Virus record (IMG/VR): IMGVR_UViG_3300043419_000923
Coordinates: 1 to 22,055 of that record
Strand: one strand, 5' to 3'
DNA: 22,055 bases
Source of the DNA: a virus
Shown: piece by piece, positions 1,390 through 19,499 of the stretch
How the letters are laid out: each line of letters starts with the position of its first letter
Numbering within the stretch: the stretch's first letter is position 1
The notes under the pieces: model-generated
What the model was told of the DNA's origin: nothing
The model's input: only the letters and a program-made list of their open reading frames with translations
Database searches by the model: none
Program-made: the position numbers and the translations under genes

Positions 1390-1510
1390 TGGTGTTTTCC
1401 AGCTCTTGAAGTCGTGCAGTCAGCATCGCCTTGTCAAGTGCTAGCAAGCCAATCTGCTCTCGCAGTGATGCGATGACCAGATTGATGTCGAGCTCTGTCG
1501 TTTGTTTCAT
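1373..1510 (-). CDS. Small coiled-coil protein downstream of tail fibre (45 aa)
   Basis: The start ATG overlaps the stop of the 563-aa fibre as ATGA, so it is coupled to it. The protein is almost entirely one amphipathic helix (LVIASLREQIGLLALDKA, then MLTARLQELEN) with Leu/Ile heptad spacing, which suggests a short coiled coil. Such small helical proteins are common after fibre genes, and it may help fibre trimerisation or assembly. Its function is inferred from position only. Confidence 0.65.
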   Translation of the reverse strand: MKQTTELDINLVIASLREQIGLLALDKAMLTARLQELENTNDTTA

Positions 1511-3198
1511 TGTGTGCCCCCCTCGAGCGTTGTTACACGTGCGTGCAAATCCTGAATCAGTGCCAGCATGCCTGGAATGATAAAACGCTCGTTCCAGTTC
1601 TCGACCAAACCGTCGCTGTGGTCGGCCGCGATTGGGTAGTGCTCGGCGACCTCTTCTGCAACCAAGCCTGGCACTAACATGCCCGCCCTATTGTCGGTTT
1701 GGTCGAGGTAGTCAGACTTGAATCTAAATGCGCGAATCGGTAAAGAAAGAAGCTTTGAAGGTGCCATGTCGGGCACATTCGTGATGTCTGTGATGTCTTC
1801 TTTGAAACGAGCGCTCGAAGCCGTGCTGCGCCTTGTGCGGCCGTCTGTATCCATGCGGGTGTTGGCGGCGTTCGCGCTGGTTGATGCGTCTTGATTGTAA
1901 AAAGCATCAAGAGTGTAAACGTTTCCGTTCATCACGACGCCCGTTGTACTAACTTGAACATACTTGGTAGAGCTAAAGGCCATACGCACATCACCAGATG
2001 AAACATAGCTGTTTGGATAGGTCGTCACGTTTGGGTCAAAGGTTGCGCCGTAGTGTGTAACGACTCCCGAAACAGACGCTGGACCAACCCAGCCAACAAC
2101 CGAGCCCGATTCTCTGAACGAAATGGCGTTGTTTGCGGCAGAGATTGTGACGCGGCGAGTGCCAGTCGAAGTCTGAAGTGTGAAAGCAGTAAGTGTGCCA
2201 GCAGTTAAGCGGTCCACGGTGATTGAGTTAGCCGCGATTTCGGCCGCCGTGATAGTGTCCGCAGCGATTTCAGCCGCGGTGATAGTGCCACCCGCGATTT
2301 GGTCTGCGGTGATGGTGGCAGTGGCGATGTTGCTGGCGGTGATAGTGCCTGCAGCTATTTTGGTGCCAGTGATTGTGCCTGCCGCGATTGAAACTGCCTC
2401 GATAGTGCCGACTGCAAGCTTGACTCCAGTGATAGTGCCCGCTGCAATCGAGACTGCTTCAATCGTGCCCGCAACGAGTTTGGCGCCAGTGATGCTGGCA
2501 GCTTGAATGCGGTCTGCATTCAACACACCAGTCGAGATGTTGCCAGCGTTGATGTTCGAGACTGTGATAACTGAGGCGTCAATAGTGCCCGCGGTTAACT
2601 TGGTGGCAGAAAGATTTGCGATTGCGTTATTGCCCAATGAAAAAGCAGAAAACGCACCACTGGTGAAGCGATAGAACCTGTTGTCGTCATCAGTGTCAAA
2701 CCACAAGTCACCCTCTGAGAATGGCCCAGTGGTGGGCATGGTGGTTTGTCTGTAGATTCGGTTTTTGCCGTCAGCCGTAGTCTGTGCGGCTGTTGCCGCG
2801 GACGCTGCCGCCGCTGCCGCTGCTGTCGCAGATGCCGCTGCTGCAGATGCTGCTGCTGCTGCAGATGTTGCCGCCGCTGCTCCAGCTTCAGCTGCTGCGA
2901 TTCCGAGGTCTTGCACTGAAACCCAGGCTGTGCCTGTCCAGTAATATGACTTGTTGCCGTCGTCTGTGTCAAACCAAACGTCGCCCTCGACCAGTGGAAA
3001 GGCAGAGCCGTCTGGCGCTGTTGGCTGGCGGTAGATGTGGTTCTTGCCGTTGACAGACGCTTCGATTGAGTTAATCTCGACTTGGAGCTCGTCAGTCTCC
3101 TCGGTGGTGGCCGCGACGATTGGAATGATAGAAGTCTGAGTCATGCCAGTCGAAGTGACGGTGACTGGTGTGATTGTGATTTGCGGACAAAGTGGCAT
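1507..3198 (-). CDS. Tail fibre/tailspike with C-terminal S74 intramolecular chaperone
   Basis: This 563-residue fibre has visible modules. Residues 1-48 form an N-terminal attachment region. Residues 51-97 and 144-188 are two copies of a module with GKN-IYRQ, GD-WFDTDD and an aromatic end. Between them lies an Ala-rich helix (100-142). Residues about 200-335 are a decapeptide repeat built on AGTIT. Residues 340-455 are a beta-rich tip. The end is an endosialidase-type chaperone domain (Peptidase_S74) beginning SSARFKEDI at 461-469. In that family the chaperone trimerises the fibre and then cuts itself off before a Ser, here S461 or S462, releasing about 100 residues. AGGGGGAG lies just before the start. 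It follows the minor tail protein by 8 bases and probably sits at the tail tip for host adsorption. No enzyme domain is visible. Confidence 0.85.
   Translation of the reverse strand: MPLCPQITITPVTVTSTGMTQTSIIPIVAATTEETDELQVEINSIEASVNGKNHIYRQPTAPDGSAFPLVEGDVWFDTDDGNKSYYWTGTAWVSVQDLGIAAAEAGAAAATSAAAAASAAAASATAAAAAAASAATAAQTTADGKNRIYRQTTMPTTGPFSEGDLWFDTDDDNRFYRFTSGAFSAFSLGNNAIANLSATKLTAGTIDASVITVSNINAGNISTGVLNADRIQAASITGAKLVAGTIEAVSIAAGTITGVKLAVGTIEAVSIAAGTITGTKIAAGTITASNIATATITADQIAGGTITAAEIAADTITAAEIAANSITVDRLTAGTLTAFTLQTSTGTRRVTISAANNAISFRESGSVVGWVGPASVSGVVTHYGATFDPNVTTYPNSYVSSGDVRMAFSSTKYVQVSTTGVVMNGNVYTLDAFYNQDASTSANAANTRMDTDGRTRRSTASSARFKEDITDITNVPDMAPSKLLSLPIRAFRFKSDYLDQTDNRAGMLVPGLVAEEVAEHYPIAADHSDGLVENWNERFIIPGMLALIQDLHARVTTLEGGTQ
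2194..2601 (-). repeat. 30-bp-period repeat encoding AGTIT decapeptides
   Basis: Inside the 563-aa fibre, about 13 successive ten-residue units follow the pattern (I/L)xAGTI(T/E)xxx, for example IAAGTITGVK, LAVGTIEAVS and IAADTITAAE. The DNA shows the matching 30-base periodicity. Such hydrophobic-spaced repeats usually form a trimeric beta-helical or beta-prism shaft. The unit containing VSIAAGTITG appears twice almost identically, so copy number could change by slippage or recombination. Confidence 0.85.
2773..2901 (-). repeat. Ala-rich low-complexity codon tract in fibre gene
   Basis: This is a GCN-rich tract (gct/gcc/gca codons with interspersed Ser and Thr codons) coding residues 100-142 of the fibre, nearly all Ala, Ser or Thr. 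It likely forms a helical linker or coiled coil between the two duplicated IYRQ/WFDTDD modules. On the opposite strand it creates spurious Leu/Gln-rich open frames. Confidence 0.8.
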
Positions 3199-6443: not shown

Positions 6444-6842
6444 TGTTCTTTTTCGCCCGTTCTTTTAGGTAGGCAGTTATCGCTTCAAGTATCCCCTCGG
6501 GGGCATCAAGCAAGTCAATAGGTGAAATGCCTGTTTCCACCGAGATAGCCGCTACAGTGTAGGTTAGGCTGTCTCGGTGGACCCGAAAGACGCGTCAGCG
6601 TCTAATTCTGCAGAAATGATGGTGTCTAGGAACTCTGGGCCCCATGGCTTAATCACCAGTCCAGCTGCACCCATGCACTTCCATGCAAGCCAATAAATGT
6701 GCTCGATTTTTTGCTCTTCACCAAGCAGCTTTGGCATTCCTTTGCCGTATTGCTGCTCGAATCCCACGATGACGCGAGGTGTCAGTTTATACGTCGCCTC
6801 GACGCCGTCTGTGGTTTTGACCTTGATTCCTAAGCCGTCCAT
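6436..6842 (-). CDS. Tail assembly chaperone, long -1 frameshift product (gpGT-like, about 135 aa)
   Basis: Siphophages make a short chaperone and, by programmed frameshift, a longer fusion; both guide the tape measure during tail assembly. Here frame 0 gives 92 residues ending at 6564. The -1 frame is open from after a TGA at 6597-6595 to a TGA at 6436-6438. It reads protein-like sequence with RDSLTYTVAAISVETG, ISPIDLLDAPEGILEAI and a basic end KERAKKNNG. A slip at T TTC GGG (6588-6582) joins 86 residues to 49 more. No separate start is needed for the extension, and the extension fills the otherwise empty gap before the gp10-like gene. Order (tube, chaperone, tape measure) fits. Confidence 0.85.
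6564..6842 (-). CDS. Tail assembly chaperone, short product (gpG-like, 92 aa)
   Basis: This is the frame-0 product of the chaperone gene. AAGGGGGA lies a few bases upstream of the ATG. The protein reads YKLTPRVIVGFEQQYGKGM and HIYWLAWKCMGAAG, the helical pattern common to actinophage tail assembly chaperones, and ends ADASFGSTETA. Most ribosomes would be expected to stop here, giving an excess of the short form over the fusion. It lies between the second tail-tube gene (18 bases upstream) and the gp10-like gene. Confidence 0.85.
   Translation of the reverse strand: MDGLGIKVKTTDGVEATYKLTPRVIVGFEQQYGKGMPKLLGEEQKIEHIYWLAWKCMGAAGLVIKPWGPEFLDTIISAELDADASFGSTETA
6582..6588 (-). other. Candidate -1 ribosomal slippery site TTTCGGG
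   Basis: In frame 0 it reads TCT TTC GGG. Slipping back one base lets tRNA-Phe re-pair perfectly (TTC to TTT). GGG to CGG keeps two pairs. It is the best candidate in the allowed window: the -1 frame is open only after 6595 and the frame-0 stop is at 6564-6566. It differs from the GGGAAAG type of lambda, so the exact slip point is inferred. Confidence 0.65.
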
Positions 6843-6860: not shown

Positions 6861-7250
6861 TTATGACTTTGTAATAACGCCGCTGATTGGCCAGGTGACC
6901 GATGCGGTTGCTAACTCTCCGACGGCACCATTAAGCGGTGTCCACTCGGAAACCAACGCACTGAACGAGTATGCAGGTGAGCTGCCAGCAACAGGACGCA
7001 CGGTCATCGAGACCGCTGTGCCGATTGTTGGGTAGATGACAGACTCAAGTGCGCCACCTGCGTAGTCCTGGTTGAACTCCAGCGAAACGCTGTTGTCCGC
7101 AAGACCAGCAACGCGAGTACGAGCCGTGTTGCCAAAAGCCGTTGTCTCAACCACATCAAGCGTTGTGCCCAAAGTGACTGAAGTGACGTAGCTGGAAATG
7201 TCTGTGGTGCCGAATGTGACTGCGACGTTTGTGAGTACAATGCGAGCCAT
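6861..7250 (-). CDS. Major tail (tube) protein, second copy (129 aa)
   Basis: This beta-rich small protein is paralogous to the gene immediately upstream. Both start MAR-VLTN, share ETTAFG, ARTRV, GLADNSV, EF-QDYA, PAYSF and LVSEWTPL-GAVGELATASVTWPI, and are well over half identical by eye. ETTAFG followed by GLADNS is typical of tail-tube subunits. The ATG at 7250 is chosen, rather than upstream starts, because it aligns with the paralogue's start and shares one base with that gene's stop (TAATG). It lacks a few residues of the first copy between the tube core and PAYSF. One copy may form the tube and the other a cap, a base segment or a surface domain. Confidence 0.85.
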   Translation of the reverse strand: MARIVLTNVAVTFGTTDISSYVTSVTLGTTLDVVETTAFGNTARTRVAGLADNSVSLEFNQDYAGGALESVIYPTIGTAVSMTVRPVAGSSPAYSFSALVSEWTPLNGAVGELATASVTWPISGVITKS

Positions 7251-7666
7251 TATGCAACCGCCTTTGCGATAGCGCCATCGATTGGCCATGTAACGCTGGC
7301 AGTTGCAAGTTCTCCGACAGCCCCACTAAGCGGAGTCCACTCGGAAACCAAGCAGTTGAATGAATATGCAGGGTTGGCAGCGGCTGTGGTTGAGCCATTT
7401 GGTTTGACAACCACTGCAGTGACTGTGCCGACGAGTGACGGCGAGCCGTTGATTGTAGCTTCGACTGATGAAGCCGCATAGTCTTGATGAAACTCAAATG
7501 CCACTGAGTTGTCGGCAAGACCGCCGACTCGAGTGCGAGCTGATGTGCCAAAAGCCGTGGTCTCGATGACGTCGTCTGTCGTGGTCAGCGTGATTGAAGC
7601 GATGTGGTCTGAAAGATTAACGCCATTGATTGTGACAAAGGCGTTTGTTAGGACTAAACGGGCCAT
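7250..7666 (-). CDS. Major tail (tube) protein, first copy (138 aa)
   Basis: This tail-tube-like subunit would stack as hexameric rings around the tape measure. It carries the tube-family pattern VIETTAFGTSARTRVGGL, then DNSVAFEFHQDYA, a variable loop (GSPSLVGTVTAVVVKPNG), PAYSFNCLVSEWTPL and ASVTWPIDG. Its start shares a base with the stop of the 55-aa gene (TAATG), and its stop shares one with the second copy. The position before the chaperone and tape measure fits the tube gene. Which of the two copies is the abundant one cannot be told from sequence. Confidence 0.87.
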   Translation of the reverse strand: MARLVLTNAFVTINGVNLSDHIASITLTTTDDVIETTAFGTSARTRVGGLADNSVAFEFHQDYAASSVEATINGSPSLVGTVTAVVVKPNGSTTAAANPAYSFNCLVSEWTPLSGAVGELATASVTWPIDGAIAKAVA

Positions 7667-7833
7667 TATTCGGCTCCTTCTGCTTGTGTTTTGACGGGGC
7701 TATTGCTTGATAGGTGCCCACCGCCGACAAGCGCGGCGATATTGAGTCCAGCTTCTAGCAATTCTTTATCTGCGACTTGGTCGCCTTTTTTCTTGTTGGC
7801 CACCGAAAAGGTGTCCGAGGTGATTGTATACAT
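7666..7833 (-). CDS. Small conserved protein of the head-tail region (55 aa)
   Basis: The start MYTITSDTFSVANKKKGD is followed by a helical patch QVADKELLEAGLNIAALVGGGHL and a polar tail ending KTQAEGAE. Proteins of this length with an LLEAGLNI-AL--GGHL-like motif occur between the tail terminator and tube genes of other actinophages; their role is not known to me. It begins directly after the tail-terminator stop and ends overlapping the tube start by one base. It could be a tail or neck assembly factor. Confidence 0.7.
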   Translation of the reverse strand: MYTITSDTFSVANKKKGDQVADKELLEAGLNIAALVGGGHLSSNSPVKTQAEGAE

Positions 7834-17291: not shown

Positions 17292-19499
17292 TTAGTATTG
17301 AACCATGATTTCGGCGATTGTCGCGCTCTGAAGTAGGGCATCGACTTGAGCAATCGTGTAAGTGTTTGCCACGTTGAATGCGCCGTACGCCACCACATTG
17401 AGTGTGTCGCTGAGGGTGGCCGCAATCGCAAGCACAACCGAAGTTCCATTCGAAGCTGTGTAATCGGTGGTGCGAACAAGAAGCACACCGTTGAGGTAGA
17501 CTTGCTCTGCGCCGACTGTGTAAGCGAGAGTGACACCGTTGGCGTCTGCACCACTAAAAGTCGCCTGTCCAGCCGTGGCAAGGTAGTAGTAGGTTACTGC
17601 AGCTGCAGAACCCGCAGCGCCCGTTGGACCTGTTGGGCCAGTTGAACCTGTAGCGCCGACTGGGCCTGTTGGGCCTGTCGCACCCACGGGGCCTGTTGCA
17701 CCGACTGGGCCTGTTGCACCGATTGGGCCTGTGGCACCTGTAGCGCCATCGACACCTGCGGGGCCTGTAGCGCCAACGGGACCTGTGGCACCGATTGGGC
17801 CTGTTGGACCTGTAACACCGTCAATTCCTGCGGGGCCTGTTGGGCCTGTGGCGCCTGTTGCGCCGTCCGTGCCGTTCGTGCCTGCGGGACCTGTAGCTCC
17901 AGTTGCGCCGACGGGGCCTGTGGCACCGACTGCACCTGTTGGGCCAACAGCACCAGTCGCACCAACGGGGCCTGTAGCACCGACTGGGCCTGTGGCACCG
18001 ATTGGGCCAGTGACACCGACGTCGCCTTGGATTCCTTGAATACCTTGTGGACCTGTCGCACCTGTGGCACCTGCGGGGCCTGTGGCACCGACTGGTCCTG
18101 TTGCACCGACTGGGCCTGTTGGACCAGTAGCGCCATCAACACCTGCAGGGCCTGTCGCTCCGACTGCGCCTGTTGCACCAGCTGGGCCTGTAGTGCCGAC
18201 TGGACCTGTAGCACCGATTGGGCCTGTTGAGCCTGTTGGGCCAGGGACTGTTGAATCTGTGCCACTCGCACCCGTCGCACCGATTGGTCCTGTTGGTCCT
18301 GTCGAGCCTGTTGGACCTTGCGGGCCTGTGGCGCCTGTTGGGCCTGTTGGACCGACTGGACCGATAGCCGCTTGTAGCGAAGTGATTACATAAGAGTAGT
18401 GCTGTGTGCCTTGTGTGTACCAAGTCAGAGCCTTAGCACCACCGCTTTGTACAGACCCGTAGATTTCCACAATCATGCGATTGGTTGGGTCCACAGCAGT
18501 CGTCGGCAAGACGATTTCGGTGACGACTTCAACAGGATTGGAAGCGTTGTAGCCGACTAGCACTGGGTTCGTGCTGCCAATGGTTGAAAGGACAGTGCCC
18601 GAAGCGTTTGCGAGCTTCAAAGTGCAAGACATCTGCACCGCATCTGCGTTGTTATTCTTGAGGGCGTAAAGGTAGAAACGTTGCACACCCGACGGAATGA
18701 GCGAGAAGCCAAACGGCTCTGTTATGTAAGACTGAACAAGCACTGGAGTCAAAGTCGCAGAAATCGCGATTGATTGCTCCGCAGCTGAGACTGGTTCTTC
18801 ACCAAGCTGCTTGAAGCCAGTCAGTTCTGTTACGGTCTCATTGAAATAGTAGAAACGGCCAGATGAGTAGCCCTGCGGGCCAGTCGAGCCTGTAGCTCCA
18901 GTCGCGCCCGTTGCACCCGTTGCGCCGATTGGGCCCGTTGGACCTGTCGCGCCGATTGGGCCTGTCGCACCAGTTGGGCCAGGGACAAACGAGTCTGCAC
19001 CCGTTGGGCCTGTCGCACCAACTGGGCCTGTGGCTCCAGTGGCGCCGACCACGCCTTGAACACCTTGTGGGCCTGTTGCACCAACTGGGCCTGTAGCACC
19101 GACTGGGCCTGTTGAGCCTGTTGGGCCAACAACGCCAGTCGCGCCTGTTGCCCCAGTTGTGCCTTGTGGACCTGTTGCACCGATTGGGCCAGTTACGCCG
19201 ACCTCGCCCTGAATGCCTTGAATGCCTTGTGGGCCTGTCGCGCCGATTGGACCTGTTGGGCCAGTAACGCCGATTGGGCCTGTTGCACCGATTGGGCCAG
19301 TGACGCCGATTGGGCCTGTTGGACCCGTCGCGCCGCTTGGGCCTGTGGCACCGATTGGGCCAGTTACGCCTGTCGGACCGAGTGGGCCTGTTGGGCCTGT
19401 TGGACCTGTTGAGCCGACTGGGCCTTGCGCGCCAGTGTCAGAGATAAGGACAGTGTTGATGTCCTTGACGATGGTGACTTCGTTTTGGCTATCAGACAC
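17292..19499 (-). CDS. Collagen-like fibre protein with two Gly-X-Y rods (735 aa)
   Basis: The plan is: N-terminal attachment (1-22), first Gly-X-Y rod (about 23-210), globular beta domain (211-379), second rod (about 380-630) and a C-terminal knob (631-735). Each rod has one break, [11 protein letters not shown] (167-177) and [11 protein letters not shown] (413-423). Rods are dominated by [12 protein letters not shown] and GVT triplets, with Thr often in the third position. The knob ([19 protein letters not shown], ending [15 protein letters not shown]) resembles the C-terminal part of phage fibres and would nucleate trimers. The start codon is GTG with AGAGG upstream, overlapping the 116-aa gene by 8 bases. 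It is probably a long flexible virion fibre. The prolyl hydroxylation state is unknown, and no hydroxylase gene is in the window. Confidence 0.88.
17610..18362 (-). repeat. Gly-X-Y coding repeat, second collagen rod
   Basis: A 9-base periodic tract (on the plus strand, recurring blocks such as GGGCCTGTTGCACCGACT) encodes about 250 residues of Gly-X-Y. Many 18-27 base blocks are near identical, which makes copy-number change by recombination with the first rod tract plausible. It also produces Pro/Val/Ala-rich antisense open frames that are not genes. Confidence 0.85.
18870..19433 (-). repeat. Gly-X-Y coding repeat, first collagen rod
   Basis: This is the same 9-base periodic pattern as the second rod tract, encoding about 188 residues of Gly-X-Y. 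It includes the [10 protein letters not shown] block that also occurs in the second rod, which shows the two tracts share ancestry or exchange sequence. Confidence 0.85.

Follow-up and report, generated by a model that had tools for sequence, protein, structure and literature searches.

The tail tube of a siphophage is usually a polymer of one protein, and the question raised by this locus is what a phage would do with two. The window, a 22,055-base virus record that was analysed at its full length and whose structural genes lie on the minus strand, contains two adjoining genes, A (the upstream copy) and B (the downstream copy), which a first-pass annotation had taken for a tandem duplication of the tail-tube gene with products more than half identical. 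The resemblance is as described: A and B are identical at 79 of 136 aligned positions (58%, with 75% positives and E 6e-54 in a single pairwise comparison), the PAYSF, LVSEWTPL and ASVTWPI blocks are present in both, and the alignment gaps fall before PAYSF, where the copies had been said to differ. The N-terminal cores are similar, and to call them near-identical slightly overstates it. The reported TAATG overlap is also there on the coding strand, where the junction reads GCATAATGGCT and the TAA of A and the ATG of B overlap by one base (Table 1). The start of A overlaps the stop of the preceding 55-aa ORF as TAATG too.

Table 1. Features of the paired tail-tube locus and its surroundings in the window
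Feature	Position	Strand	Basis or remark
Probable tape measure, 521 aa	4295..5860	-	phrog_1272 weak, E 3.7e-4; position and length
92-aa gene, tail-assembly-chaperone position	6564..6842	-	Named by position only
Copy B, 129 aa, likely lower-copy specialised tube subunit	6861..7250	-	phrog_4574, AlphaFold, Foldseek, VIA-align, AAGG
TAATG junction, one base common to the A stop and B start	7248..7252	-	
Tail-tube protein copy A, 138 aa, likely main tube subunit	7250..7666	-	phrog_4574, AlphaFold, Foldseek, AAGGAG
55-aa ORF, stop overlapping the A start	7666..7833	-	ORF at the same place in single-copy relatives
Tail terminator, used for the phage tree	7834..8241	-	phrog_17840, E 1.3e-29
Head-tail adaptor (neck), used for the phage tree	8238..8846	-	phrog_442, E 8.9e-16

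The pair sits within a structural gene cluster. Along the minus strand the genes run from the small terminase (PF25673), large terminase (PF20441), portal (PF04860) and prohead protease (PF04586) to an HK97-type capsid (PF05065), the neck (phrog_442), the terminator (phrog_17840), the 55-aa ORF, and then A and B. These are followed by the 92-aa gene, which has no PHROG or Pfam match, a 193-aa gene, the probable tape measure and further tail genes. Between the terminase and portal genes, a 735-aa protein (17292-19499, minus strand) carries long collagen-like G-x-x repeats (GPTGPTG...), and a glycosyltransferase-like gene (PF00534; 12824-13900, minus strand) adjoins the portal gene; glycosyltransferase or similar genes are also found among the structural genes of the Pontimonas phage phiPsal1 and of locus L079. 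A tail fibre-like protein with repeats (1507-3198, minus strand) has a weak match to PF13884, the endosialidase chaperone domain (E 0.0016, below the curated cut-off).

Both products look like tail-tube proteins. A and B match the major tail protein family phrog_4574 over most of their length (A, E 1.4e-22 over residues 1-132; B, E 7.6e-21 over residues 14-125), which makes them putative members by profile; Pfam had no match for either. AlphaFold models built from 50-row alignments of window and IMG/VR sequences reached a mean pLDDT of 88.0 for A and 84.7 for B. The highest-ranking Foldseek hits of both are to tail-tube proteins, among them monocin MttP, R4C, phiCD508 and lambda gpV, with 35 matches at E ≤ 0.001 for B and 25 for A, and VIA-align gave B a Z of 12.4 against monocin and 11.9 against R4C. 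Both models thus predict the tail-tube fold, a beta-sandwich with a helix and a long beta2-beta3 loop, and the order of these elements agrees with tube proteins as described in PMC8718954. Polymerization of A and B into the virion tube is the role predicted from profile and model. A search of solved structures by sequence returned four matches, all to SopA-type ligases (E 0.062 to 0.2), which we take as chance. The pair is not a fused two-domain tube protein of the T5 or P74-26 type, as a stop separates the A and B frames, nor is it a frameshift pair of the SPP1 type, as B is a second gene of full length that has a start codon to itself.

How widespread is the pair? Seven IMG/VR scans (the best 80 matches of each), one genome scan and phage records gave 506 usable loci, many of them from the same contigs, and 505 hold a match. 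At least 399 of these 505 matching loci listed have two copies. By profile score, 389 of the 399 are ordered A then B, eight are scored A then A with a second copy that scores nearly as well for B, and two, scored B then B, are one contig (L135/L311). On that contig (L135:2-732) two B-type copies stand in tandem with a TAATG junction at the contig end, which may reflect a recent duplication of B or a replacement of A. The 386 complete two-copy loci listed represent 198 distinct A-B regions; the 13 of 399 that are cut were omitted from the 46-phage, tree and 53-phage correlation analyses, and these locus counts and the analyses built on them omit L152, L153, L308 and L387-L390 (the window's own copies, named phages and WhiB loci). 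Within type, identity goes down to 54% among A copies and 40% among B copies (46 phages).

The loci with one copy among the 505 listed comprise 97 of A type and 9 of B type. Among the latter, eight begin right at the edge of their locus; the remaining one, with scores of 69 and 78, comes from EBPR siphovirus 6, a distant and partial record. Since 81 of the 97 A-type loci have at least 430 bases on both sides of the gene, they are true single copies, and the single-copy phages examined have the same gene order with B absent. The scan of genome contigs produced two loci only. Searches of the phage collection matched seven records with A and six with B, each at one place, and revealed no two-copy phage. 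A single-copy relative with 54% identity to A (L309:6001-6402) is found in a Pirellulales-named MAG, on a contig of 318 kb that may be either a prophage or a mis-binned phage contig.

Trees of the neighbouring genes place the origin of the pair at a single point. From 359 rows we took 16 two-copy and 16 one-copy rows, all under 80% identity to one another, and built a neck-plus-terminator tree in which all 16 two-copy rows fall on one side of a branch with support 100/100 and the 16 one-copy rows on the opposite side, so that copy number is explained by one change; no loss of B was seen among these 32 rows. In a tube-protein tree of 73 rows, which omits edge-cut one-copy loci and the partial record L157, all 30 sampled B copies form one clade (SH-aLRT 91, on a branch that is not starred). 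The A/B pair is one old duplication among the phages sampled, and the proposed tandem duplication of a tail-tube gene is supported by the similarity of the copies, the phrog_4574 matches, the folds and the trees alike. We considered whether the single-copy phages had lost B, as the tube-protein tree mixed single copies among the A copies, but rejected this because the neck-plus-terminator trees place them outside. The one-copy rows that appeared inside the two-copy clade in an earlier neck-plus-terminator tree (L075, L293, L028 and L051) belong to loci that end close behind the copy, and the terminators of the one-copy loci L485 and L504 are nearest to those of one-copy phages.

Decay of one copy in relatives was looked for and did not turn up: both genes are open and both are under purifying selection. 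The comparison of dN/dS across relatives, which the first-pass annotation had suggested as a check, gave low medians of 0.096 for A and 0.069 for B, with largest values of 0.53 and 0.62 (508 pairs with dS of 0.05 to 1 in both genes, pairs that are not independent; three of 119 two-copy regions, L070, L115 and L135, were dropped). We rejected a fixed faster copy, since the more diverged copy switches: in the 65 regions where B is 129 aa long, A is more diverged in 1700 of 2080 pairs, but only in 166 of 1275 in the 51 regions that remain (again pairs that are not independent).

Each copy has residues of its own. In most of 116 phages A has I13, V16, L78 and T83 where B has F13, T16, T75 and V80. 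At 21 type-specific positions defined in 28 phages, the single-copy consensus, which takes in some loci cut at one end, matches A at 11 positions, B at 3 and either neither or both at the other 7; A appears from this to be the conservative copy that keeps the ancestral residues. The type-specific residues lean to predicted outer elements (15/37 vs 6/83 in 28 phages, 9/37 vs 4/83 in 46 phages), and A and B tend to differ in beta1, the helix and beta4. According to PMC10276861, each R4C ring touches the one beneath it through the long loop, and subunits next to each other in a ring are joined by beta5-beta2 bonding and salt bridges. In a weak alignment to R4C (hhalign E 0.038) that is in order with the structural match, most loop contacts fall on residues common to A and B. 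With most loop contacts in common, the two proteins could be stacked within a single tube while presenting different outer or lateral surfaces.

The expression signals of the two genes are strongly unequal across phages. In the window each of the two starts forms TAATG with the stop before it, which makes the sites comparable in kind; A has AAGGAG as its Shine-Dalgarno match 7 nt before the start, and B has the shorter AAGG 10 nt before. Across 46 non-redundant phages the match at A is 6 nt in 42 and 4 nt in 4, whereas at B it is 6 nt in 1, 4 nt in 18, 3 nt in 5 and absent in 22. It is longer at A in 44 phages, equal in 2 and shorter in none, and anti-SD pairing is stronger at A in 44 of the 46. 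With each phage's capsid gene as reference, A shows better codon adaptation than B in 29 of 33 phages (Wilcoxon 7e-8; the 13 of 46 phages without a capsid gene are omitted), and also in 29 of 33 when only aligned positions with the same amino acid are compared; the two tests have equal rank sums by coincidence, and their exceptions differ. The window's own pair shows a very small codon gap, 0.033 with all positions counted and 0.006 with matched ones. When the tape measure replaces the capsid gene as reference, A is the higher in 71 of 95, with medians nearly equal at 0.67 and 0.66.

Measured against other structural genes, codon adaptation of A lies above that of the neck in 28/32 phages, the terminator in 28/32, the gene in the chaperone position in 29/31, the tape measure in 18/19 and the tip in 6/8. 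The corresponding counts for B are 10/32, 17/32, 10/31, 5/19 and 3/8. Single-copy tube genes exceed neck and terminator in 11/11 phages (11 of the 41 one-copy phages with a capsid gene, the rest having lacked 900 bases of that gene, been cut or been named edge loci). New here is that A combines ancestral residues with a strong Shine-Dalgarno site and capsid-like codons, as single-copy tube genes do, and that B has a weak site or none, with the codon usage of low-copy structural genes. In solved phages the terminator and neck are present in six to twelve copies, according to the descriptions of JBD30 and R4C (PMC10276861), and the signals of B resemble those of terminator and neck genes, unlike those of the bulk tube protein. 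Overall the signals favour an unequal pair with A major and B minor, which is easier to reconcile with a specialised ring than with A and B mixed in equal amounts.

We tentatively favour one tandem duplication followed by a division of labour, in which A builds the tube and B is a low-copy specialised subunit, perhaps of the end ring or rings. In the ancestor of an actinophage-like group the tail-tube gene would have duplicated in tandem. A would have kept the ancestral job, being made in bulk and stacked as tube rings around the tape measure; B would be translated at a lower level from the same message, probably in part through coupling across the A/B junction, and a small number of its subunits would enter the tube that A forms, where they would most likely make up one or a few B-only rings at one end, with an outer face unlike that of A. 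This reading draws on the single old duplication, the fixed A-then-B order, the constraint on both genes, the conservative character of A, the unequal signals, the tube fold and the precedent for end rings. Of the first-pass proposal of a two-subunit tube or a specialised ring at one end, the computed signals lean towards a ring over an equal mix; that B is in the virion, in low copy, in rings of its own and at an end is what we infer. Several points weigh against this reading. The codon gap is very small for the window's own pair, and across phages the medians nearly coincide when the tape measure serves as reference. Weak Shine-Dalgarno sites can still yield well through translational coupling, the ring-stacking elements look common to A and B rather than specialised, as those of an end ring might need to be, and an early hint of B at the tip was not borne out.

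The common ring-forming elements, together with adjacency, fixed order and coupling, would also suit alternating A3B3 rings, an arrangement that would be the unfused equivalent of the tubes of T5 and P74-26, which are trimers of duplicated fused domains as described in PMC9022992 and PMC10034513. PDB entry 9vne, whose title names a T6SS Hcp2-Hcp3 heterohexamer, belongs to the same class of fold and points the same way. Such an arrangement is hard to square with Shine-Dalgarno and codon signals that are strongly unequal across phages, and single-copy relatives manage with an A-type copy alone, so we regard it as unlikely; if true, an A3B3 pseudo-hexameric tube would be a living counterpart of the unfused stage before fusion of the T5 and P74-26 type. 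We give a similarly low probability to B as a minor subunit sprinkled through the tube, replacing A at scattered sites to give a different outer face. SPP1 offers the model, as its tail mixes gp17.1 and gp17.1* at 3:1 in the account of PMC8718954, and the outward lean of the type-specific residues and the shared stacking elements agree with it. Against it, B has no added decoration domain in its 129 aa, and the outer elements also vary more within each type.

Two further explanations seem far less probable. Two near-equivalent copies might merely raise the amount of tube protein, which the high similarity of A and B and the one contig with a recent B-B tandem (L135/L311) would allow. This we consider very improbable, given type-specific residues kept across phages, unequal expression signals and lineages of A and B that stay separate. 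B might instead act as an assembly factor outside the finished virion, for which its low-copy signals would be suitable; the tube fold, which is complete in B, and the retention of the residues common with A make this, too, very doubtful.

If B forms rings of its own at an end, which end would it be? The low-copy signals of B would fit a tube-initiator ring of the Afp5/Pvc5 or CD1367 type, a single ring that lies between tube and tip. In distance correlations over 19 phages, B tracked the protein after the tape measure (partial 0.62; 0.29 for A), and A tracked the other six genes better than B. This hint of B at the tip was not reproduced in larger sets: the difference in tip-protein correlation had an interval of -0.36 to 0.65 in a common set of 24 phages and was -0.11 (interval -0.24 to 0.05) in 53 phages. 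B tracked the tape measure better than A in the 24-phage set (interval 0.09 to 0.66), and in the 53-phage set the corresponding interval includes zero.

Paired or duplicated tube subunits have precedent in the published descriptions of SPP1 gp17.1/gp17.1*, the fused proteins of T5 and P74-26, and Afp1/Afp5. SPP1 likewise has two tube subunits per tail, but there one gene yields both by a frameshift that adds an FN3 domain (PMC8718954), whereas the window has two genes. T5 pb6 and the P74-26 tube protein likewise have a duplicated tube domain (PMC9022992, PMC8718954, PMC10034513), and differ from A and B in that the domains are fused in one polypeptide and form trimeric rings. The tube initiators Afp5/Pvc5 and diffocin CD1367 are each a second tube-related protein beside the main one, CD1367 being described as forming, in six copies, a ring beneath the first ring of the tube (PMC13324602, PMC13277306, PMC12961389). 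These belong to contractile systems, and we liken them to B by description and not by sequence. Closer to the window, phiPsal1, the Rhodococcus phages REQ1 and Shagrat, and the one-copy IMG/VR relatives have a homologous tube protein at the same place after the terminator, but in one copy, unlike A and B.

In the open-licence PMC papers searched, we found no report of an adjacent, unfused and anciently kept pair of tail-tube genes. A pair kept for so long with unequal signals lends itself to questions about how tube rings select their neighbours, what might mark the end of a tube and how duplicated domains become fused, and the related single-copy phages, of which phiPsal1 is cultured, serve as controls.

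Of 27 long records from one-copy and two-copy phages, 17 carry WhiB genes; of 14 control genomes, that of Corynebacterium glutamicum alone has one. This distribution points to actinobacterial hosts, and the hosts of the paired-gene phages are probably Actinobacteria. Some actinophages (clusters EL, DJ and others) have more than one annotated major tail protein, as reported in PMC11080557 and PMC10652937. The Microbacterium phage DizzyRudy (L308) has three genes annotated as major tail protein, of about 286, 586 and 255 aa, the first of them one gene away from the other two, and differs from the A/B pair in the number of these proteins and in their very unequal length.
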